A stretch of DNA of 64,000 nucleotides, taken from positions 62,001 to 126,000 of the forward strand of contig NZ_FRBE01000004.1 of NCBI RefSeq assembly GCF_900142535.1, in the 5' to 3' direction. The notes beneath the pieces were generated by a model. That model ran no database searches, was not told where the DNA came from, and saw only the letters and a list, made by a program, of their open reading frames with translations. The position numbers and the translations under genes were made by a program. The stretch comes from Fibrobacter sp. UWEL (GTDB lineage Bacteria > Fibrobacterota > Fibrobacteria > Fibrobacterales > Fibrobacteraceae). Positions 11,009 through 62,124 of this stretch are shown here, piece by piece. Positions within the stretch are counted from its first letter, which is position 1. The number at the start of each line of letters is the position of its first letter.

Positions 11009-11035
11009 AGAGGGCGGGGCTGTTCCCCGCCCTCT
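11009..11035. repeat. GC-rich perfect inverted repeat
   Basis: AGAGGGCGGGG (11009-11019), a 5-base loop and CCCCGCCCTCT (11025-11035). There is no T tract on either side. It sits between the tRNA terminator and the tandem hairpin elements. Confidence 0.7.
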
Positions 11036-11146
11036 GGACTCCCACCCCAGCTAGCTATTCGCTTCGCTCTTAGCTAGGAGTACTCGGGATGGACTCCCAC
11101 CCCAGCTAACGATGCGCTTTGCTTATCGTTAGCGGTTCTCGGGATG
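11036..11146. repeat. Two tandem 55-bp hairpin elements with conserved flanks
   Basis: Copies at 11036-11090 and 11091-11146 share the first 18 bases (GGACTCCCACCCCAGCTA), the loop core CGCTTYGCT and the end CTCGGGAT. Between them the stems differ but each is self-complementary: CTAGCTA/TAGCTAG (11051-11057, 11071-11077) and GCTAACGAT/ATCGTTAGC (11105-11113, 11125-11133). This occupies the gap downstream of the diguanylate cyclase, which is transcribed towards it. Confidence 0.75.
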
Positions 11147-15237: not shown

Positions 15238-15284
15238 CCCGCAAAACAAGTGCGTTCAGTACTTTTGAACAAACTTCCAATCCC

Positions 15285-15575
15285 GCTCTGTGTTCCCGAG
15301 CAGAGCATCTGCCTGTCATACGAAACCACCATCGACCGTGGCCGATGAGATATCCCCACGTTTGGGAAAGGAACCAGACGCCTCTTTCAAGTACGCTCTG
15401 TTCTCCCGAGCAGAGCATCGGCCTGTCGTATAGACTGCTCCATAGGATGTGGCCAACACCATATCCACACGTTTGGGAAAGGAAGGCCAGAAGCCTCTTT
15501 CAAGTACGCTCTGTTTTCTTGAATTAGTGTTGGCCTGTCGTATGGACTGCTCCATAGGATGTGGCCAACACGATA
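15285..15575. repeat. Tandem repeat, 2.6 copies of a 110-113 bp unit
   Basis: Copies begin with GCTCTG at 15285, 15395 and 15508. Shared segments include CCTGTC(A/G)TA, GTGGCC(A/G)A, CACGTTTGGGAAAGGAA and CCTCTTTCAAGTAC. Copies 1 and 2 carry a hairpin GCTCTG...CAGAGC at their start; copy 3 has lost it and ends near the stop codon of the sugar transferase (15576). Copies 2 and 3 are more alike than copy 1. No ORF is supported here. Confidence 0.75.
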
Positions 15576-16748
15576 TTAATACGCGCCTTCGCCCTTGAAC
15601 ACGACCTTAAAGGTCTTGAGAATCAGCTTGAAGTCGTCGCCCAGCTTGCCGTCACGACGGATGTAGTCGTTGTCCAAACGCATCTGACCTTCAAAGCTAA
15701 TGTTACTGCGGCCACTGACCTGCCAGATACAGGTAAGACCGGGGGTCACAGACAGGCGCATGCGGTGCCACGGTTCATATTCCGCCACTTCGGATGGAAT
15801 AGGAGGACGAGGACCTACAATGGACATGTCGCCCTTGATGACGTTGAAGAACTGGGGCAGTTCGTCCAGACTGAACTTACGCAGCACATGTCCGAACGGA
15901 TAAATACGAGGGTCGTTCTTCATCTTGAAGGTCTTACCGCCCGTTTCGTTCTGAGCCATCAAAGCTTTCTTGCGTTCTTCGGCATCTGCGTACATACTGC
16001 GGAACTTGTACATGGTGAACAGCTTGCCATTGCGTCCCACACGAATCTGCTTAAAGATGATGGGGCCCTTGGGGTCGCTAATCTTCACTGCCAATGCGCA
16101 GAACAAAAGCAGGGGGGAGCAAAGGATTACGGCAACGCTTGTGCAGACCACGTCCACGATACGCTTGATCACATGGCGATAGCGAATCTTGTGAGGATGC
16201 TGCCAGATGTGGTCCAAGTTCAGACGCTGGAGACTGAAGAAGCTTCCGTTAGTGCTGTTGAATTCGTCCAGCTTGTCCTGCTGTTCCAGGGCGTCCTTTT
16301 CGGTGAGGCCGCTGTAGATGTAGGCCTGGAAAATGGGACGCTTGGGCTTGATTCGCAGGGACTGGATGAGACCTGCGTCGTTCAGCTTGTGGAGCATTTC
16401 CTTGCGGATGGCTTCAAGTTTGGACAGGTCGGAATTCAGGAGGATGATGCCGATACCGCTACCATCGTCCAGATATCCAAGTACGTCGATGAAACGCAGG
16501 TGGGAGAACATGGTCAGAAGACTGATTCGCCATGTCTTGCTAACGGTTTCGTCGTTACTGGCCCAGCCGAAGATATCGTACTGGTGGGAATAAATCTTGA
16601 TGAACAGGAATGGCTTGCGGGTGCGGTTGGCTCGCAAAAATTCCTCGTTGAGCCTCGCCCTGAAAAGGCGGGCCGGATAGACAATATTCTTAAGCTTCTG
16701 CTCGTTGAGCAGGTTGTCGATAGCCGGATTTGAACTCACTTGTTCCAT
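15576..16748 (-). CDS. Polyprenyl-phosphate sugar-1-phosphate transferase (bacterial sugar transferase)
   Basis: ATG 16748 is preferred (390 residues); an upstream ATG at 16841 has no ribosome site. The N-terminal ~190 residues are a soluble domain (FLFIKIYSHQYDIFGWASND; LGYLDDGSGIGIILLNSDLS). Then one membrane helix (IVDVVCTSVAVILCSPLLLF) leads to the Bac_transf core: GPIIFKQIRVGRNGKLFTMYK, FRSMYADAEERK, LRKFSLDELPQFFNVIKGDM, SIVGPRPPIP and TPGLTCIWQVSGRS. Such enzymes load the first sugar phosphate onto undecaprenyl phosphate for exopolysaccharide or glycan assembly. A second, different member is at 18318. Confidence 0.88.
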   Translation of the reverse strand: MEQVSSNPAIDNLLNEQKLKNIVYPARLFRARLNEEFLRANRTRKPFLFIKIYSHQYDIFGWASNDETVSKTWRISLLTMFSHLRFIDVLGYLDDGSGIGIILLNSDLSKLEAIRKEMLHKLNDAGLIQSLRIKPKRPIFQAYIYSGLTEKDALEQQDKLDEFNSTNGSFFSLQRLNLDHIWQHPHKIRYRHVIKRIVDVVCTSVAVILCSPLLLFCALAVKISDPKGPIIFKQIRVGRNGKLFTMYKFRSMYADAEERKKALMAQNETGGKTFKMKNDPRIYPFGHVLRKFSLDELPQFFNVIKGDMSIVGPRPPIPSEVAEYEPWHRMRLSVTPGLTCIWQVSGRSNISFEGQMRLDNDYIRRDGKLGDDFKLILKTFKVVFKGEGAY

Positions 16749-34490: not shown

Positions 34491-36425
34491 TTACTTGATC
34501 TTTACGACCTGAGAGGCGTTCATGCCAGCGCCCTTCACGCTGACGATGTACTGACCCTTAGACAGGTCGGACATATCGAAGGCGTGAGTACCGGCGGCGA
34601 GAGCGCCACGGTAGAGGGTTGCCACGCGCTTGCCGGTCATGCTGAAGACGTCGACATTGACGTTACCAGCGGAAGCGGCAGTGAACATAATGCTCTGACC
34701 CTGAACCTTGAGGCCTGCTGCCTTGGCGGCTGCCATGGTGTTAATGGCGGTGGTGGTTCCGCTTCCGATGATTTCAGCCTTTACGAGGTTGCCTTCTTCA
34801 ATGGAAATCTTTGCTTTCTTGTTGAAGTCGTTAATCACAACGCCTGCATCAGTCTTGACATCGTCAAAGAACAGAGTTCCAGACCAACCTGCACCAAAGA
34901 ATTCGATGTAGAACTTGCTGATGTTCTTCATGAAGTTGGTGTAATCGTCACCTTCCAGAATTTCCTGATCCTTAGCGGTGGTGCTCAGATCAATTTCGCA
35001 GGTGGTTTCTTCGCCAGCATTAATCCAGCAGCCATCGGGCTGAGCCCAAGCCCAATCCGGAGCGCCAGTCAGGAAGGCGATGGTGAACCACACGCCGGCA
35101 TCGTTGTTGGAATTGTCCACTTCCAGAGTGATTTTCTTTGCGCTGGAAAGGTCAATCTTGCCGGACTTAATCACGATATTGCCTCTGGCAGTATCGGCAG
35201 CAGTTGCGTTGGCGGTAACCATAAGGTAGCCGTTGGTAGCGGTATCTGCAGGGAAGTTGATGGTATGGTCTACAGCGGTATCCAAATCAGCAAGGGCATA
35301 GCCAACTTCGCAAGCGGCTGCCGGAGCGTTACTGATGGTGTAGTTGTCCCAGCCCGGCATGTCTTCGAGAGCATAGACGCAAGGAGACTTCAGGTTTGCC
35401 TCCCAGACGGTATTCTTGGTCTTGCTGACAAAGTTACCGCTCCAGGTTTCGTACCAAGGCATGTTCCAGGACCAAACTGCTCCGTCGGCATGCATCAGGG
35501 ATGCGTCAGGAATAGGACCGTTTTCGGAAAGAGCAAGAATCTTGTTGGCGTGGAGAGCTACCATGTCCTTGTAAGCGGTAGCATTGCTCTGGTAGTCGTA
35601 GGAACTGTTGTAAATGTCTACGGAGAATACATCGTAGTAGGCTTCACCCGGATCCCAGGTGGCGTCGGTGAAAATGGACCTTTCGGCGTTCCAGACCCAA
35701 ACCAGGTTATTTACGCCGTTGACCTTCACCATACGGTCGTAAACAAGGCGGTAGAGAGCTGCGTATTCAGCACCCTTATGCATGGTTTCGGTAGCGCTCC
35801 ACCAGAACCAGGCTCCACCAGATTCGTGGAGGGGACGGAAGATGGCTGCAACGCCCTTTTCCTGCAAAGTCTTGAAGAGTGCGGAAATTTCGTCGATGTC
35901 TTCTACAATCTGCTTGTAGGTTTCGGAGGTTTCGTCCCATTCCGTGGTGCCTGCCTTAAAACCGGCAGAATAATCGAAGGTGGTGTATTCCTTAGCATTG
36001 CCCTTCTTGTTGTAGAAGGCGTCGATGGTGTGGCTGGGGTCTTTCCAGTGCCAGGAGAATGCGGGAATGCCGCCGTTCTTCCACAAGTCGGCTGCTGCAT
36101 CCAGAGCGTTCTGGGTATAGGACTTGTACCAGCTGTCGTCTGCCTTGATGCCATTGGCGAACAGGAAGTCAAAACCGACCAGGGCAGGGTACTTGCCTGC
36201 TGCTTCATAAACGGCCTGTAAGTCAGGGAGTTCCTTGACGACGCTACCGTCGAGATCGCCGGTTTGAACACCGGAAACGGTGTGGGTACCGAAATTGGTT
36301 GCCAGGAAGTTGTACAACTTCTGGGCGCTTTCAGTTGCATTTGCATTGCCGATGCTGTAGCTGACTGCTGCCTGAGAGGCTGCAGCTGCAAGGCCGAATG
36401 CTAAAAGCGTTTTCTTGAAATCCAT
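34491..36425 (-). CDS. GH26 beta-mannanase with C-terminal binding module and sorting tail
   Basis: Start is ATG 36425 (644 residues, after GAGG); the frame upstream to 36584 lacks a signal. The signal is MDFKKTLLAFGLAAAASQA. The GH26 domain covers about 30-385: acid/base Glu201 in FRPLHESGGAWFWWS, nucleophile Glu301 in ALSENGPIPD, and GAVWSWNMPWYETW intact. Residues about 420-570 are a beta module like that of the neighbouring GH5 (WAQPDGCWINAGEETTCEID, GWSGTLFFDDVK). The tail is VNVDVFSMTGKRVATLYRG ... SKGQYIVSVKG ... QVVKIK. It lacks the CBM35 of its paralogues. Confidence 0.92.
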   Translation of the reverse strand: MDFKKTLLAFGLAAAASQAAVSYSIGNANATESAQKLYNFLATNFGTHTVSGVQTGDLDGSVVKELPDLQAVYEAAGKYPALVGFDFLFANGIKADDSWYKSYTQNALDAAADLWKNGGIPAFSWHWKDPSHTIDAFYNKKGNAKEYTTFDYSAGFKAGTTEWDETSETYKQIVEDIDEISALFKTLQEKGVAAIFRPLHESGGAWFWWSATETMHKGAEYAALYRLVYDRMVKVNGVNNLVWVWNAERSIFTDATWDPGEAYYDVFSVDIYNSSYDYQSNATAYKDMVALHANKILALSENGPIPDASLMHADGAVWSWNMPWYETWSGNFVSKTKNTVWEANLKSPCVYALEDMPGWDNYTISNAPAAACEVGYALADLDTAVDHTINFPADTATNGYLMVTANATAADTARGNIVIKSGKIDLSSAKKITLEVDNSNNDAGVWFTIAFLTGAPDWAWAQPDGCWINAGEETTCEIDLSTTAKDQEILEGDDYTNFMKNISKFYIEFFGAGWSGTLFFDDVKTDAGVVINDFNKKAKISIEEGNLVKAEIIGSGTTTAINTMAAAKAAGLKVQGQSIMFTAASAGNVNVDVFSMTGKRVATLYRGALAAGTHAFDMSDLSKGQYIVSVKGAGMNASQVVKIK

Positions 36426-36545
36426 ATACACCTCATACAATTGTTTTGGTTCGCTGCCTAAAACTATACTCATCCATATAATGGAGGCGCGATTTCTTTC
36501 CCACCGGTTGTAATTGTGTTGAAAAAAACTCAACGAGCAAAAAAA

Positions 36546-36580
36546 CGAAAAAATGGCGTTTTCATTAAGAAAACGCCATT
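36546..36580 (-). terminator. Terminator downstream of the epimerase-like gene
   Basis: AATGGCGTTTTC (36552-36563), loop ATTAA, GAAAACGCCATT (36569-36580). On the minus strand it continues TTTTTCG. Confidence 0.88.
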
Positions 36581-36617
36581 CCAACCAAGGAGTGTTGAAA
36601 AAAGATTACGTTTTTGC

Positions 36618-37598
36618 CTACTTTTCGGAGACCGTAAAGCCGAACTGGAAGGTTCTGGACTGTCCTGCCGGAATCACAATCAGGCCACGGTGATGATTTA
36701 GGGCGTCCGGCTCGGAAGTCATGGGTTCGATGGCGATGCTCATACGGTCAGGAGGAGTGTACATCTGGATAGCGTTGTACTGTTCCACGCCGGCGCGCTG
36801 CCAGATATCCAGAGTCTTGGACGCACTTTCCAGAATCACATGGGCGTTACTGGTCAAATCCTGGGTGTCAGTGACGCGGACCTTGGAAAATTCATCGTTC
36901 AGGCAGAAACAGTCGTTAATGAACATGTCGCCAATCTTGTTGCCTGCCACAAAGCGGGTGTCGTCCTTGAAACTGCCGGTGGGAAGGTCCGCCTGGTCCA
37001 GGAGGGCGAGCTTTGTTTCCGGAATTCTCATGGTGAGTCCGTCGATCTTTTCGCCCAGCATAAAGTAGGGGTGCCAACCTTCGGAATAGGGCATGTCCTT
37101 CGTGCCCAGGTTTTCCACCTTGGACTGGATCATGACAGATTCACCGTTGAAGGTAATCATGTTGGTGGCGCGATAGGGGAAAGGGAAGCCTGTGTAAGCG
37201 CCCGGCCAGTCGCAGGTAAATATGGCTGTGCAGCTGTCGCTATCGCTTTCGAAACTCTGGAATTTCCATTCCTTGTTCTGGAGGAAACCGTGGAGGGCGT
37301 GAGGAGCCCAGCTCACATTGTTTTCCAACTGGTAGGTGTTGCCGCCCCAGGTAAACTTGGCGTAGGCGGTACGGCCCGGGAACGGGGTCAGTCGGCAGCC
37401 CGCATTGGTATCAGGGGCAATCTTTGCAATGTCGTCGCCCTGGCGGTAGCCCATCAGGAGGTCGCTGCCATTGACGCGCCAGGCGTTCAGGCCGCAACCG
37501 TAGCCGCTAAGAACTTCGAATTCAGCACCATCATCGCGCTGCAGGACGTAGCATTCGAGGGTGCCAAGGGGGCGGGAGATAATCTTGAACTGACTCAT
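36618..37598 (-). CDS. Aldose 1-epimerase-like protein
   Basis: A 326-residue cytoplasmic protein of the galactose-mutarotase-like fold. Family features: CRLTPFPGRTAYAKFTWGG, HALHGFLQNKEWKF (catalytic-type His), SEGWHPYFMLG (second His) and IAIEPMTSEPDALNH (catalytic-type Glu). It interconverts anomers of free sugars or sugar phosphates; substrate not assignable. Standing next to the mannan locus, with its own terminator, it may act on mannose or glucose released outside, but that is inference. Confidence 0.85.
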   Translation of the reverse strand: MSQFKIISRPLGTLECYVLQRDDGAEFEVLSGYGCGLNAWRVNGSDLLMGYRQGDDIAKIAPDTNAGCRLTPFPGRTAYAKFTWGGNTYQLENNVSWAPHALHGFLQNKEWKFQSFESDSDSCTAIFTCDWPGAYTGFPFPYRATNMITFNGESVMIQSKVENLGTKDMPYSEGWHPYFMLGEKIDGLTMRIPETKLALLDQADLPTGSFKDDTRFVAGNKIGDMFINDCFCLNDEFSKVRVTDTQDLTSNAHVILESASKTLDIWQRAGVEQYNAIQMYTPPDRMSIAIEPMTSEPDALNHHRGLIVIPAGQSRTFQFGFTVSEK

Positions 37599-37736
37599 AG
37601 TGGGGTAAAATTAGTTTATGAAGGTGAAATTTCACATCATATTTTGATCGGATAGTAAAAATGTATCACGAAAAACAATAAAAGAGGAATAGTGAAAGTT
37701 TTTTGTAATAAATGTTACTTCTATCTTTTACATCAT

Positions 37737-39194
37737 ATGGATAAGCAGACGATTGTAGCACCGATGACCCCAAACGGAGTGAGTGCCGTTGCGGCTATTC
37801 GCGTCAGTGGCCCCCAGGTAAAAAACGTGGTGCATGCCCTCTTTGGCGAAAAGGCCCAGGCCGGTCTTAAATCCCACATGGCAAAACTGGGTACGGCAAG
37901 GTGGCCCGCTGATGTGGCGGGTGGGTGCCGCGATGTTCAATTGTCAGGCGGGTGCCGCGCCGGGGCTGTGATTGATAGCCTGCTTTACTTGTATTTTGAA
38001 GGTCCCAATTCCTACACTGGCGAAGATGTGCTGGAACTGTACCCCCACGGAAACCCCCTGATTGTGCGAGACCTGCTCCAGGCTTGCCGCATGGTGGATG
38101 GCGTCCGATTGGCGGAGCCGGGGGAATACACCCGTCGAGCATTTTTGAACGGGAAGATGGACCTGACTCAGGCCGAGTCCGTTGCCGACGTGATTCACAG
38201 CGCAAACCGTTCCGAGTTGGAAAACGCTCACCGCTTGCTGGGCGGTGCCTTGTCCCGCAAGGTGAGTGCGTTAACCGCCCAGGTGAAGGATATTTCCGCA
38301 CGAATGGAACTGGATGTGGATTTTGCCGAAGAAGAGGCGGATCCGGATTACGCTGGATGGGAAACGCGCTTTGTGGCTATCCGCCAGTCGGTTCAGGATA
38401 TTCTGGATAGTTTCCGCGGGAAGGCCGAAGTAGGCCGCCTCCCTCTGGTTGTGCTCTATGGCGCTCCCAACGCAGGCAAGTCCAGCCTGGTGAATGCCCT
38501 TCTGGGCGAAGACCGCATTCTCGTCAGTGACATCGCAGGTACTACCCGCGACTTCGTGGAAGTCCGTCTGTTCTTAGACGGTGGCGAAATCCGTCTGGTG
38601 GATACCGCAGGCTTAGCTGCCCGCGCCGCCGACGCTCTGGACGCACTCAGTATGGAAAAGAGCCGCCAGATTCTAGCAGAAGCCGACATGAAAATCCTGC
38701 TGGTGGACAGCTCCAACTGTCATCCTGAGCGTAGCGCCTCTGACGCGGAGTCGAAAGCCTGCCCTGAGCTTGCCGAAAGGAATCTTGGTGCAATGCCGGA
38801 TCTTGTCCTCTACACAAAGCAGGACCTTGCCCCCGCATGTCATCCTGAGCGCAGCGCCTTAGGCGCGGAGTCGAAGGATCTAGCTGCACTTGCCATTTCA
38901 TCAAAAACAGGCGCAGGTCTCGCGGAACTCAAGTCCACCCTCAATGCCCGCCTTTTCAAGAATCGCGAAAACTCCGAAGATCTCTGGATCACAAGCGAAC
39001 GTGAGAAGGTGTGCCTGGAAGAAGCTCTGGCTGGCATCGACCGCGTGCTCCATCAGCTGCGCTCCAATCCCGCAGTAGAACTGCTGGCTTTTGAAATGCA
39101 AATCGTTCGCCGCGCTCTCCAGAGCATCACCGGCGAAATCTCATCCGAAGACGTTTTACAATCCATCTTTGCGGGGTTCTGCATTGGGAAATAG
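37737..39194 (+). CDS. mnmE: tRNA modification GTPase MnmE, with repeat-derived insertions in the G domain
   Basis: The start is set at ATG 37737 ([14 protein letters not shown] is the usual N-terminus); an in-frame GTG at 37692 has AGAGGA but only three bases of spacing. 485 residues. Motifs: folate-binding [21 protein letters not shown]1 [10 protein letters not shown]2 GTTRD, G3 DTAG, G4 TKQD and C-terminal CIGK. With MnmG it builds cmnm5U34 in tRNA. Between G3 and the helical end are two in-frame copies of CHPERSA--AESK, encoded by palindromic intergenic-type repeats (38718 and 38838). Both leave the GTPase motifs intact. Confidence 0.94.
38718..38785. repeat. Palindromic repeat copy inside mnmE (between G3 and G4)
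   Basis: TGTCATCCTGAGCG at 38718, GCGCC...GGAGTCGAAAG to 38757, then a second element CCTGAGCTTGCCGAAAGG (about 38763-38780). In frame it encodes [13 protein letters not shown] and PELAERN. It matches the intergenic copy at 61168. Confidence 0.85.
38838..38881. repeat. Palindromic repeat copy inside mnmE (after G4)
   Basis: A 44-bp element from TGTCATCCTGAGCG to GTCGAAGGATCT. It equals the intergenic element at 61168-61211 in length and nearly in sequence. In frame it encodes [14 protein letters not shown]. Confidence 0.9.
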
Positions 39195-40065
39195 CTATCT
39201 CGGCGCGTTACTCGCCATCGTCATTTTCGGCTCCTACATGGTGCCCTTAAAGAAGTGGTCCTCCTACTCTTCCTGGTCTTTCTTGTCCATGATGACAACG
39301 GGGGCTCTCCTTTGCTCTCTAGTCATAGCCTTCGTGACGGGAACTTTCAATATGAATCCCATGGGCCTGTTGTGCGGCGCCCTGTGGGTAGCTGGTGGTG
39401 CCTTCTGCTTCTGGGCGGTTCAGGCCGAAGCGGACTTGGCCGGTGCTGGTGTTCGTGCTATGGGCGTGAGTATTCTGGCCTCCTTCCTGTCGGGCGTTTT
39501 GCTGTTTGGCGAACCGTCTAACTATGCACTTTCCATTCCGGCAATCGTCTGCTTTCTGGTTGGCCTCTCCCGATTGACGCCTTCCACCGGCGGTTCCGTG
39601 TTTAAGAACTGGCGTTCCTTCCTGGGTGGCTTCGTTTTCGGTACATACCTGATTCCCTTTAAGATTGCGACGGCTCATGGCCTGCAGCTGACGGATGTGG
39701 AATTCATGTGTTCCTTGTCCATCGGCATTTTCATTACGAGCCAAATTCTGGTGGGCATCCTGATGCTCAAACGCAAGAAATCCTTTGGATTCCCGGTGCT
39801 GCCTAGCCTTGTGTGCGCAGGTGCGGGTGCCCTTTGGACCATCGGTATGCACGGCTGCTTCTGGGCCATTGCTCCAATTGCTGCTGGCGGTACCTTGGGC
39901 TATGCCGTGGGCTATCCTCTCACTCAGTTGAACCTGCTGGTAAACCTGAGCTGGGGCGTGTTCGTCTTTGGAGAATACAAAACCGCCAAGGAACGAATCA
40001 AGCTGCTTTTGGCGACCTTCATCATCCTTGCCGGTGCGGTTCTACTGACCCTGTCTAAGGGTTAG
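39184..40065 (+). CDS. GRP-type (DMT superfamily) sugar transporter
   Basis: The proposed start is TTG 39184, overlapping the end of mnmE by 11 bp; ATG 39238 is possible but would cut the first helix. 293 residues with ten membrane helices and the pattern of glucose/ribose uptake permeases (GRP family): [42 protein letters not shown] and [21 protein letters not shown] role in uptake of a monosaccharide is likely. It ends convergently with the M6 protease, 19 bp apart, without a visible hairpin. Confidence 0.8.
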
Positions 40066-40084
40066 TTTTTGAAATTTTCTCTGA

Positions 40085-42538
40085 TTATTTCACTGAGATT
40101 TTTCTCTGGCTCATCACCTTGCCGCCTTCGGTGAGGCGCACTACCAGAACTTTTCCAGCAAAGGGTGCTAAGTCAAGACTGTAGCTTTCTCCCGTAAATT
40201 GAATGGTTTGAATCTTATTGCCCAGCAGGTCAAATAAGGCTACGGACTTGACCGCCTGACCATATGCCGCAATATGCAAGGTCTTGTGTTCCAAATTCAT
40301 CTGGGTGCGTCCCTTGTGTTCTGCTTTCACAGCCAAAGTCCCTTCGCTGGATTTTGCAGTAATCTGTGTCTTGAAAATCACCTGCTTCCCGTTGAAGGTC
40401 AAGGCCTGGGCGATGCTGTATGTTCCCGGGGTAATTCCGTCGGGGTAATTCCCGATGGTAGCTGTCATGTTGTCCAAATTTAAGTTGGAATAGAGGGCGG
40501 CGCCTGCTCCCCAGCTGATAACGTTACCTTGTTCATCAAACCAGTGACCCGGTTCCTCTGCGGTAGATGGCGTGTTGTCAAGAATACCTGCACTTGTAAC
40601 CGCGCTGTAAGTTAATTCGCCACTCTGGTACAGGGAACTTGCGTTTGCCGCAGAAATTCCAAGGGCTGTTGCAACGCTGCTTAAGTCAAGGCTAACGGAT
40701 TCGTAAGAATCGCTGATGGTCAGCTCTGTGCTCAGGTTGATCGTCTGGGTCACCAGTTGCATGGAACTGGAGCTAGACTTCACGACAGAGCTGGAGGATT
40801 TTGCACTGCTGGAACTTGCTGCCACGCTACTGCTAGACTTCGCGACGGAACTAGAAGATTTCGCAACAGAACTAGATGACTTCGCGCTAGAGCTAGAAGA
40901 AACCGCGCTGTTGCAGTCTCCAACGCTTACGCCACTCTGGGTTGCAAAGCACACTTTGTTGTTCTTTTCCGTAATGCTGTAAAGCTGGATACCTTGGCTC
41001 TTGCCCGCCCAGGAAGTGAACGGCCCATAGCTTGTCACATTCTGGGAACCGGGGAACGGATCGTCCATAAAGTGGGTTGTTTCAAAGCCATCGTAGTAGC
41101 CGGTTACCCTCAGGTTTCCTGCTTCCACCACGTCAATTCTCTGATGGGTCTTGTCGTCATTCAGGGCGTCTCCATCCCATGCTTCTTGATCGTAATCGAT
41201 GTGCCAAATCAGCATGCCGTGATTGGGAAGTGCGGCATCCCATTTGGTCTTCTGGCGGTTTTCCAAAACCCACCATTCGTCATTATCGCCGCTGACGGGA
41301 ATCTTGTAGGCCATGTTAGTTGTGTTCAGCGGAGTGATGGTTGTAACTGCCGAAGACGATGTCAGCGAGGTGTAGTTCATCCATCCCATAAAGGCTCGTT
41401 CAAAACCGCTATAGCTGGGAGGTGTCAAACCGCCATTGGCGTACATGCCGGTGGCCATCACGTCCCAATAGTGGGCACCGGGAGATTGGTAACTGCTATT
41501 GGTAAAGTCGGAGTAACAGTCATCGGCACGTACGCAGTAGTGGTCCATCAAGCCCATGGTGTGGCTGAATTCATGAACGAACACGGGGAAGTAACTTTGG
41601 TCGCTAATAATGAAATAGCTGTTGAATTTCTTGCCGTTACCTGCGTCCTGAGTGCCTGCATTATTCCATTGCAATTCGTACTGGAATCCGCCCAGCTCTT
41701 GCCCGTTGTTGACTTCTCCCGCATAAAGGAAACCGGTGGCGTCAATGTTACCGTCCCCATCGGAATCGTAGCTGGAAGCGTTGAAGTTGGGATACTTGGA
41801 TTTAAGAGCGCTGATGGCTGCGGCTACCAGCTGGTCTTCGTTCCCGATGTAGCTGCTTAGGGAGTTGTTTACGGTTACGTAGAACAGGTCGAAACTAGGC
41901 TTGAACGCTCCGCTGGACTGGTCGTTGAAATAATCGCGGACAGACCCGGTATGGCCTCCGGCGGTGTAGTTATCCTGATTCAGGACTTTATACAATGTGG
42001 TGGAATCGATACTTGCCTGACTGCCGGAACCCGCCACAAGAATTACGGGGAACTTAATGTTTCCCTGGGTGTGGACTTTTGCGTTGGGCAGGTAGCGAAC
42101 CGCCGGCACGCCGCTATCGCTAGAGTTGCTCGACTCGCTGGAGGTTGCAGAGGGTACCCAGTTGGGACGCTTGTTTCGTTCCTTGCGTTTGAAACGGTCC
42201 GGATGTTTTTTCTGGTGGGAGTCCAGTACTTTACTCTTGTCCAGCTTTTTCAAAAAAGCCTTGTCGGCTGCGCTGCGGGCATCCGCATTTTTTGCCTTGA
42301 TATTGGATCGTTCCCCATTGCTATTGACGTAATAGTAAACGCCATTAGAGTCCTGTTCCAGCAAGTAACCATCGATGGTTCTTGTAAAATGGTAATGTTC
42401 GTCACCCAGCTTTTGCAGCGTCACCGAATCGCCATCGTTGTCGATGGTTTTGGGTGTAGGGTTGAACGGAGCGGCTTCTGCTCCGGCGAAAAGACCGAAG
42501 GAAAGTACGCTTCCTAAAAACACATGAATTTTTTTCAT
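40085..42538 (-). CDS. Secreted M6-family metalloprotease with poly-Ser linker and sorting tail
   Basis: The start is ATG 42538 after AAAGGA (817 residues). The signal runs to about residue 22, a propeptide-like basic region to about 145. The M6 catalytic domain has the zinc motif HEFSHTMGLMDH (His322, Glu323, His326) and a downstream YWDVMATGMY Met-turn-like segment. A linker of SSSSVAK units (about residues 545-590) is encoded by 21-bp tandem DNA repeats. A beta domain and a sorting tail follow (VALFDLLGNKIQTIQFTG ... APFAGKVLVVRLTEG). Likely surface or extracellular protein turnover in the fibre-degrading secretome. Confidence 0.88.
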   Translation of the reverse strand: MKKIHVFLGSVLSFGLFAGAEAAPFNPTPKTIDNDGDSVTLQKLGDEHYHFTRTIDGYLLEQDSNGVYYYVNSNGERSNIKAKNADARSAADKAFLKKLDKSKVLDSHQKKHPDRFKRKERNKRPNWVPSATSSESSNSSDSGVPAVRYLPNAKVHTQGNIKFPVILVAGSGSQASIDSTTLYKVLNQDNYTAGGHTGSVRDYFNDQSSGAFKPSFDLFYVTVNNSLSSYIGNEDQLVAAAISALKSKYPNFNASSYDSDGDGNIDATGFLYAGEVNNGQELGGFQYELQWNNAGTQDAGNGKKFNSYFIISDQSYFPVFVHEFSHTMGLMDHYCVRADDCYSDFTNSSYQSPGAHYWDVMATGMYANGGLTPPSYSGFERAFMGWMNYTSLTSSSAVTTITPLNTTNMAYKIPVSGDNDEWWVLENRQKTKWDAALPNHGMLIWHIDYDQEAWDGDALNDDKTHQRIDVVEAGNLRVTGYYDGFETTHFMDDPFPGSQNVTSYGPFTSWAGKSQGIQLYSITEKNNKVCFATQSGVSVGDCNSAVSSSSSAKSSSSVAKSSSSVAKSSSSVAASSSSAKSSSSVVKSSSSSMQLVTQTINLSTELTISDSYESVSLDLSSVATALGISAANASSLYQSGELTYSAVTSAGILDNTPSTAEEPGHWFDEQGNVISWGAGAALYSNLNLDNMTATIGNYPDGITPGTYSIAQALTFNGKQVIFKTQITAKSSEGTLAVKAEHKGRTQMNLEHKTLHIAAYGQAVKSVALFDLLGNKIQTIQFTGESYSLDLAPFAGKVLVVRLTEGGKVMSQRKISVK

Positions 42539-46690: not shown

Positions 46691-46855
46691 GCTCGCCTTA
46701 TTTCTTTTGGCCCTCTACGAGGGCTAAAGAGATGGCTCGGCAATGCGAATATAAATATTCGCGCTGCGCTCGCCTTATTTTGGCCCTCTACGAGGGCTAA
46801 AGGGTCGGCTCGGCAATGCGAATATAAATATTCGCGCTGCGCTCGCCTTATTTCT
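46691..46855. repeat. Tandem repeat of about 75 bp containing an AT palindrome
   Basis: GCTCGCCTTATTT occurs at 46691, 46768 and 46841. Each full unit holds the hairpin GCCCTCTACGAGGGC and the 18-bp perfect palindrome GCGAATAT-AA-ATATTCGC. The last copy runs into the 3' end of the adaptor gene (stop at 46848). Confidence 0.75.
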
Positions 46856-51193: not shown

Positions 51194-51197
51194 AGTT

Positions 51198-51223
51198 GTC
51201 ATCCCCGACTTGATTGGGGATCT
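51198..51223. repeat. GTCATCCCC palindrome after thiC
   Basis: GTCATCCCCGA...TTGGGGATCT, a small inverted repeat four bases after the thiC stop. It belongs to the same family as those at 52132, 54821, 58704 and 61168. Confidence 0.7.
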
Positions 51224-52126: not shown

Positions 52127-52131
52127 TCCCT

Positions 52132-52203
52132 CGTCATTCCCGGCTTCCTCCTACGTCATTCCCGGCTTCCTCCTACGTCATTCCCGGCTTGACCGGGAAT
52201 CTC
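52132..52203. repeat. 22-bp exact tandem repeat ending in a palindrome
   Basis: CGTCATTCCCGGCTTCCTCC(TA) occurs at 52132 and 52154. A third partial copy at 52176 continues CTTGACCGGGAATCT, which pairs with its own ATTCCCGG. Confidence 0.85.
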
Positions 52204-54820: not shown

Positions 54821-54869
54821 GAATTGTCATCCCCGCGTAGAATTGTCATCCCCGCGTAGGCGGGGATCT
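54821..54869. repeat. 19-bp direct repeat with GTCATCCCCG palindrome
   Basis: GAATTGTCATCCCCGCGTA occurs at 54821 and 54840, followed by GGCGGGGATCT, which pairs with ATCCCCGC. Confidence 0.85.
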
Positions 54870-58682: not shown

Positions 58683-58703
58683 ACACACTACCTTTATTCC
58701 GCT

Positions 58704-58729
58704 GTCATCCTCGACTCGATCGAGGATCT
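58704..58729. repeat. GTCATCCTCG palindrome upstream of the pectin operon
   Basis: GTCATCCTCGA...TCGAGGATCT, perfect inner arms (ATCCTCGA/TCGAGGAT), located 21 bases before the lyase start. It lies inside the likely 5' leader, since TATAGAT lies further upstream. Confidence 0.75.
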
Positions 58730-58934: not shown

Positions 58935-61139
<2,205 letters not shown>

Positions 61140-61167: not shown

Positions 61168-61211
61168 TGTCATCCTGAGCGTAGCGCCATAGGCGCGAAG
61201 TCGAAGGATCT
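61168..61211. repeat. 44-bp palindromic repeat after icd
   Basis: TGTCATCCTGAGCGTAGCGC...GCGCGAAGTCGAAGGATCT, the intergenic counterpart of the two copies within mnmE. A truncated GTCATCCCCGCG precedes it at 61148. Confidence 0.9.
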
Positions 61212-61284: not shown

Positions 61285-62124
61285 TTACTTACTTGTTTCG
61301 GTTGTTTCAACATCGCTCTTAGATATTGCTCCCGATTCCGTTGTTACAAAGATTCCGTTCTCTGCACTATAGGATGGCCTAAGCCCTGTCACTCGAGACA
61401 TGGGAATATCGAACGTTGCTCCAACTTCGCTTAGCTTATAAGCTTCTTGAGTCCAGGAGGGTGCTTCCTTGAAGAACAGGGATTTTCCTCCTCTCTTTGA
61501 CAGCAGCGCCGTACTTGAAGTGTGGTCTGTGGAGTGGATTACCATGATCTGGCGATGCTTCCCATCCCATTTTAGACCCGTGTGAATAACGTCATCCACC
61601 TTGGTGCTGAATCCGCTATGATACAACGTGGTATCATTATCCGGATACCTGTTTGGATTCTGGATAGTCACAGGTGCGCGGAATGCCAAGGTGGCCGTAC
61701 CCCCAGTCATGGTGCCGCGGTTGTAGTCAAAGTCGTCTGGCAGATAATACACAGAAATGTAACGGTACTTTTTAGGATCCTTCTGTTCCCACAGACCGTC
61801 AAAATACATGGTAAGACGTTCTCCCTCTACCGCAGCCGTATCCATTGTGGCAAAGAACACGATGTAAGAGGAAACACTGAATTGATGCTCGTCAAAATCT
61901 AAAGTATACGCGGCAACATTCGACTTGTTGAACGTGGAATCGTTGAACATCTGCTCAACAGCCTTCTCACCCTTGTATACCTTATCGGTTTCTGGATCGA
62001 CGTAATAAGCCTCCTCAGAATCTTCGTCCCAATCTACATTGGGTTTGGTGGCCGAACTGCAAGAAGCCATCTGCATTGCCAACACAGATGGAATAATATA
62101 AGCCAGTGTTTTTTTGATACTCAT
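61285..62124 (-). CDS. Lipoprotein of unknown function
   Basis: A 279-residue protein. The lipobox lies in LAMQMASCSS (Cys22). I do not recognise the family. The mature part begins with an acidic stretch (DWDEDSEEAYYVDPETDKVY) and is beta-rich (QFSVSSYIVFFATMDTAAVE, YRYISVYYLPDDFDYNRG, TATLAFRAPVTI). It ends with a Thr/Glu/Ser tail. Good Shine-Dalgarno AAGGAG. Divergent from the pilin-like gene; a link between the two is possible but unproven. Confidence 0.7.
   Translation of the reverse strand: MSIKKTLAYIIPSVLAMQMASCSSATKPNVDWDEDSEEAYYVDPETDKVYKGEKAVEQMFNDSTFNKSNVAAYTLDFDEHQFSVSSYIVFFATMDTAAVEGERLTMYFDGLWEQKDPKKYRYISVYYLPDDFDYNRGTMTGGTATLAFRAPVTIQNPNRYPDNDTTLYHSGFSTKVDDVIHTGLKWDGKHRQIMVIHSTDHTSSTALLSKRGGKSLFFKEAPSWTQEAYKLSEVGATFDIPMSRVTGLRPSYSAENGIFVTTESGAISKSDVETTETSK

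Follow-up and report, generated by a model that had tools for sequence, protein, structure and literature searches.

The two loops that flank the G4 motif of the tRNA modification GTPase MnmE are very probably permissive sites that have been refilled repeatedly by small hairpin repeats spreading through Fibrobacter genomes, with the enzyme core kept under purifying selection and the inserts tolerated. In Fibrobacter sp. UWEL, two such repeats flank G4 within mnmE, both of them in frame, as had been proposed from the letters alone (hereafter the sequence-only reading): the open frame holds exact copies of the 14-mer TGTCATCCTGAGCG at 38718 and 38838 (coordinates are those of the window, the whole 64-kb stretch of UWEL DNA that was analyzed). 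That the same element also occurs between genes was borne out by a third exact copy at 61168, which is flanked by an ORF that ends at 61139 and by an opposite-strand ORF that ends at 61285. All three elements are of the TGTCATCCTGAGCG…TCGAAGGATCT type. Both mnmE copies encode in-frame peptides as the sequence-only reading had it; the extent given for the first one was too short, as its right arm (AGGAATCT) is separated from the left arm and hairpin (38718–38755) by a nested AGCCTGCCCTGAGCTTGCCGAA. A composite of this kind was also found in a glycosyltransferase gene (locus L027).

Related elements with other stems occur elsewhere in the window (Table 1). Near 51197, 52132, 54844 and 58703, the common layout is GTC, an AT-opening stem, a loop, the complementary stem ending in AT and a C; the full copy at 54845–54869 reads GTC-ATCCCCGC-GTAG-GCGGGGAT-CTA. 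A search of window positions 36000–41000 against Rfam gave no match. The window also contains tandem direct repeats at 46702–46847 (73 nt), 11035–11144 (55 nt) and 15274–15583 (approximately 110 nt).

Table 1 Features of the 64-kb window discussed in the text.
Feature	Position	Strand	Description
mnmE	37737..39194	+	tRNA modification GTPase (485 aa); reading frame intact across both inserts
Insert 1	38718..38785	+	Composite family-A palindromic element, 68 nt; loop 1 before G4, residues 328–350
G4 stretch	38814..38825	+	TKQD, residues 360–363, between the two inserts
Insert 2	38838..38881	+	Family-A element, 44 nt; loop 2 between G4 and G5, residues 368–382
Intergenic copy	61168..61211	+	Same 44-nt form as insert 2
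Superfamily element	51197..51223	+	Different stem, GTCATCCCCGACTTGATTGGGGATCTG
Superfamily element	52127..52202	+	Two tag-side half copies, then full copy (CGTCATTCCCGG...CCGGGAATC)
Superfamily element	54825..54869	+	One half copy, then full copy (stem of 8 bp, loop of 4 nt)
Superfamily element	58703..58729	+	Different stem, GTCATCCTCGACTCGATCGAGGATCTA

The 14-mer that marks these elements, here called family A, is a genomic repeat. Allowing up to two mismatches, five matches to TGTCATCCTGAGCG were found in the window against 0.30 expected, a number reached in 0 of 100 shuffles; the whole UWEL genome contains 48 exact copies (23 + 25) versus none for the reversed control, and 107 copies at no more than one mismatch. 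A chance origin is excluded by these counts. Among same-genus genomes, 36 of 37 contain the exact 14-mer, versus 1 of 23 among more distant genomes. Copies in the UWEL genome are mainly 44, 28, 42 and 38 nt long, with most between 27 and 45 nt. The 44-nt form, with 25 copies, folds as TGTC-ATCCT-hairpin-AGGAT-CT, and the family-A hairpin covaries: pairing is kept in 99.2% of cells, changes on both sides occur at 7 of 10 stem pairs versus 3.2 in shuffles, and in the inner hairpin every pair varies and 100% are still paired. These 44-mers start with TGTC or CGTC in 24 cases and with AGTC in one, and the first two stem pairs are A-U and U-A in all 25. Family A in the form found in mnmE consists of 5 bp, a bulge, 5 bp and a 3-nt loop, and element tails read CTA, CCA or otherwise. 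The plain form of the element is free of stop codons in four of its six reading frames.

The identity of the host gene was established by several comparisons. Its product matched MnmE_helical (3e-37), TrmE_N (3e-32) and MMR_HSR1 (7e-21) in Pfam, found MnmE proteins in the PDB and ranked MnmE structures first in Foldseek. It carries TrmE_N, helical and G domains, intact G motifs (G1, G3 and G5 included) and the FCIGK end. Residues K361 and D363 of G4 showed no variation in alignments of 10 and 64 sequences. The same genome encodes a full-length 660-aa frame with a GIDA-family match, likely MnmG, the partner of MnmE. The sequence-only reading is thus supported in taking the segments for intergenic-type palindromes, and the MnmE in which they sit in frame is of a working type. 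The finding that would have refuted that reading, their presence in every MnmE homologue outside Fibrobacter, did not turn up: phmmer alignments to three solved MnmE proteins contain no CHPERS insert. Codons flanking the loops are under strong purifying selection (dN/dS of 0.026–0.126 across 219 mnmE codons and 15 species pairs). An AlphaFold model based on the 64-sequence alignment reached a mean pLDDT of 84.6 and retained the strand preceding loop 1 as well as those at G4 and G5. The sequence-only reading had suggested modeling the G domain to see whether both inserts fall in surface loops; in this otherwise confident model, they are predicted as low-confidence loops, with pLDDT of 54 for residues 331–340, 59 for 341–350 and 51 for 371–380. 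An additional stretch at residues ~57–76 (window 37905–37965) contains the direct repeat GCGGGTGCCGCG; it is not in the consensus of 10 relatives and model confidence is low there.

Short repeats can mislead assembly, the UWEL genome (3.53 Mb) is assembled in 62 contigs, and most of the relatives compared are MAGs, so the inserts might be thought an artefact of assembly or annotation. We find this hardly credible. One open frame runs to the FC/SIGK end in 70 of 70 mnmE loci, and the dN/dS values are those of normal coding evolution. Copies of 28–68 nt are, moreover, shorter than usual sequencing reads.

The contents of the same two loops were then compared across the family. A gene for MnmE was recovered from 70 of 101 family genomes, and 69 were parsed for loops (L099 excluded), of which 66 belong to the genus Fibrobacter; of the 70 Fibrobacter genomes in the family set, four had no usable mnmE. 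Lengths were 14–100 aa for loop 1 and 10–100 aa for loop 2. Across the 66 genes, these loops hold different repeat families, on both strands and sometimes in tandem or nested. Their contents include family A, read as CHPERS or, in another frame, as VILSEAKNLS; family B (GTCATTGCGAG), read as CHCERSEAI or VIARSEATKQS; family C, read as tandem SRHSREGE; family H on the reverse strand, read as GGSGAAMT; tandem SMDPLLRCAQSRMTS on the reverse strand; and 7-nt-type tandem repeats, read for example as DERRETRDER. Families B, C and H are themselves multicopy in genomes whose mnmE carries them: B has 11–79 copies in 12 Fibrobacter genomes, which were chosen because their mnmE carries B; H has 6–15 copies in five genomes; and C has up to 15 copies per genome, with its strict pattern occurring only once in G056. 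In the mnmE genes of L054, L064 and L055, a second element is nested behind the GAGC of an A element.

Under a strict rule (GTC, then AT plus 3 nt, with the complement no more than 100 nt away), 49 palindromes were found in 10,431 loop nucleotides versus eight in 90,912 nucleotides elsewhere in the 69 mnmE ORFs, a 54-fold difference between related and hence not independent sequences. By hand count, 36 of the 66 Fibrobacter genes contain at least one strict palindrome. With family patterns that were defined after inspecting the loops, 39 genes carry a listed palindrome family, 50 any listed repeat and 16 none. Parsimony on a loop-free mnmE tree required at least 21 changes of palindrome-family state in loop 1 and at least 18 in loop 2, summed over families; these counts are rough, as the tree was built quickly and 28 of its 66 inner branches have weak support. 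Tandem repeats of the 7-nt type (ACGARAG, TTCGGAA and CTCGAAC types) share the loops of the palindromes, for example in L047, L051, L079 and L096, and were counted in loop 1 of 25 genes and in loop 2 of 16. They are not palindromes, and the REP idea does not explain them.

The sequence-only reading had called the repeats domesticated. Domestication would mean that they were kept because their peptides improve or regulate MnmE, for example in GTPase coupling or MnmG binding. Inserts are indeed common, given the recognized repeats in 50 of 66 genes, and within loop 1 the model forms a short helix (residues 344–350) from repeat-derived sequence, at a place where the segment is longer in other MnmE proteins. 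Against this, insert sequence, family, strand, frame and length all vary, even between close relatives; some inserts are degenerate or partly deleted, and no sign of a gained function was seen. L088, L090 and L091 have no listed repeat, and their loops are minimal, at 14 and 10 aa. We therefore abandon the term and judge domestication very unlikely; the inserts look like tolerated passengers. In these three genes, the strand preceding loop 1 is separated from G4 by 14 aa, a shorter stretch than the aligned MnmE proteins of solved structure have, so loss of a helix may have preceded the time at which loop 1 became permissive.

The sequence-only reading further stated that the element moves into genes. 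Other genes do carry copies, as described below; movement itself was not observed. For the A elements in mnmE, comparison of species gave no filled site that could be matched cleanly to an empty one with a target-site duplication, because the loop flanks diverge too fast. A candidate empty relative was available for only 11 of 157 elements, several of these being weak or due to chance. Mobility of the element is therefore deduced from species comparison. A deletion remnant, ATGTCAATCTC, stands in L243 at the position of the whole B element of L249 and L252, and a nested insertion in CobA-HemD is present in both filled and empty states.

Partial copies are polar. An extra tag-side half lies upstream in 13 of 89 strict elements, some of the 13 being orthologues, and a far-side half lies downstream in one. 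That single case (L137) coincides with a stretch of L025 whose frame matches coiled-coil families; it is probably not a repeat. Tag-side halves in tandem upstream of a full copy occur in the window (52127–52202 and 54825–54869) and in L092, L108, L253 and L256. Such half copies may hint at polar copying. Neighboring elements no more than 150 nt apart have the same orientation in 13 pairs and opposite orientations in one.

Several of these observations would equally suit loops that are hypervariable for other reasons, such as slippage of short tandem repeats or recombination between repeats, and that receive palindromes from intergenic copies by template switching or gene conversion with no transposition-like process. 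The tandem repeats sharing both loops, the polarity of partial copies, the lack of a target duplication in filled/empty comparisons and the lack of a PF01797 (Y1) match in the UWEL genome all favor this account, to which we grant a substantial if minority probability. It fits less well with whole, two-ended elements at unrelated sites throughout the genome, some nested in one another, and the excess of same-orientation pairs is explained equally by insertion with an orientation preference. Mobilization by an IS200/RAYT-like Y1 transposase, as for REPINs in Pseudomonas, appears far less probable. PF01797 profiles matched in 12 of 41 Fibrobacter genomes. A link between the two was rejected: UWEL has its 48 exact copies and no PF01797 match, and G076 is the reverse, with two PF01797 matches and no exact 14-mer. 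The tag is also TGTC rather than GTAG.

The sequence-only reading had called for a count of in-gene copies; for family A, the contexts of 100 of the 107 UWEL places were inspected. Running across a copy with at least 90 nt on each side are 29 frames. By hand count from the Pfam results, at least 16 copies lie within a Pfam domain or separate two domains of the same protein: three in CobA-HemD; two each in topoisomerase, HemA, ABC transporter, glycosyltransferase and MnmE; and others in an RlmL-like methyltransferase, a CbiX-NAD-binding protein and a type ISP restriction enzyme. Eight more are in frames whose Pfam match is elsewhere, some possibly upstream of the true start. The majority of the remaining copies look intergenic. 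A heme/siroheme gene region of approximately 7 kb (G000:C1:113595-120611; loci L003, L004, L120 and L121) holds 8 of the 100 copies, where 0.2 would be expected from an even distribution.

Recurrence at fixed loops extends beyond mnmE. In CobA-HemD, four variable loops contain the same repeat families (27 genes, from 30 loci of which L240, L247 and L254 were unparsed), and a nest like that in mnmE was found in the CobA-HemD gene of L256. With the palindrome limit set to 60 nt, strict palindromes per 10 kb numbered 11.0 in CobA-HemD, 4.5 in mnmE and 4.3 in TopA (25 loci) versus 0.6 in a control gene, Icd (30 loci). Excluded from these locus sets as other genes or fragments were L292–L296. The mnmE total here is 46, versus 49 + 8 above, owing to the different length limit and overlap rule, with one unparsed gene omitted from the 49 + 8. 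The control gene presumably encodes isocitrate dehydrogenase; of its four strict matches, three are ordinary-looking stretches and one lies beyond the 730-aa protein. The contrast between the three rich genes and Icd argues that tolerance of inserts is gene-specific; the sample is small, with mnmE, TopA and CobA-HemD chosen for carrying inserts and the single control chosen regardless of them. Among the TopA loci (L267–L291), strict palindromes on both strands were noted in 18 of 25 species loci, a few resembling ordinary coding sequence.

We favor a scheme in which a hairpin repeat resembling CGTC-tagged REPs would spread through Fibrobacter genomes, with insertions arising widely. Four of six frames being stop-free, a copy could survive where its frame is tolerated and its landing site is a flexible surface loop, and other landings would be purged. 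The two MnmE loops beside G4 would be such permissive sites; as the genus evolved, at least six repeat families that look unrelated, together with short tandem repeats, would have occupied them in many rounds of filling, emptying and refilling. Copying might be linked to replication or repair of the host DNA at the hairpin, or to a trans-acting enzyme, rather than to a RAYT transposase. A more far-reaching proposal, which we offer tentatively and hold to be rather doubtful, is that certain surface loops of core enzymes (those beside G4 in MnmE, four in CobA-HemD and several in topoisomerase) serve as standing landing pads, where hairpin repeats of many families are gained and lost all the time. 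These repeats would multiply through a polar kind of copying, so far undescribed, which starts at TGTC and involves no Y1 transposase. Stops part-way would then leave tag-side halves, and the loops would be rewritten mainly by repeat traffic instead of point mutation.

Fibrobacter mnmE thus amounts to a natural insertion scan: across 66 genes, the inserts in these two loops differ or are missing. As MnmE has solved homologues and an assayable activity, tolerance, function and copying could be tested on real variants. For annotation, stretches such as CHPERS, VILSE and SRHSREG in Fibrobacter proteins should be recognized as repeat-derived. The sequence-only reading had considered in-frame inserts in such a GTPase unusual; this holds less for the palindromes themselves, which have already been described in Rickettsia and in further bacteria that bear REPs, reportedly since 2000 and mainly in the former. 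What appears to be new here is that several families refill the same MnmE loops across a genus. A title-level search with partial coverage of the literature found no description of such repeats in Fibrobacter and no precedent for this genus-wide refilling.

Among known systems, GTAG-tagged REPs and REPINs with RAYT transposases are short palindromes with many copies, mostly intergenic. The Fibrobacter elements are likewise short, palindromic and multicopy, but their tag is TGTC and the UWEL genome has no RAYT-family match. Rickettsia palindromic elements (RPEs) in protein-coding genes were reportedly described by Ogata in 2000 and 2002. In reviews, RPEs are presented as in-frame palindromes in many unrelated conserved genes, with several families per genome and a length of approximately 105–150 nt (PMC10969869 and PMC2229807), and are usually read as tolerated, not functional, as gmk with an RPE remains active (PMC2229807). 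Judged against those accounts, the Fibrobacter palindromes are similar in lying in frame in conserved genes, with 16 of 100 copies in or between Pfam domains. They differ in being mostly 28–68 nt long (68 and 44 nt in mnmE), in belonging to another phylum and in the refilling of one enzyme's loops by different families genus-wide. CGTC-tagged REPs, as portrayed in the main text of Di Nocera 2013 (PMC3733652), which does not mention Fibrobacter, have a CGTC/TGTC tag, an AT-opening stem of 8–9 bp, a loop of 4–5 nt, a short tail that is mostly CCA, no dedicated transposase, intragenic copies and mainly head-to-head dimers. As far as that text goes, the Fibrobacter elements share the unpaired TGTC/CGTC tag, the complementary AT stem opening, the presence of copies inside genes and, for UWEL, a genome with no PF01797 transposase. 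The window copy at 54845–54869 fits the described stem (8 bp, GTAG loop), whereas family A, with its bulged two-part stem, does not. The short tails read CTA, CCA or otherwise in Fibrobacter, and neighbors are head-to-tail in 13 of 14 pairs, in contrast to the head-to-head dimers. The nearest precedent for recurrence at the same site is recB, where section 15 of the same paper places REPs at about one position in two Xanthomonas species. In their TGTC tag, AT/AT stem opening and covarying hairpin, the Fibrobacter elements resemble CGTC-tagged REPs, and they appear to behave like RPEs.
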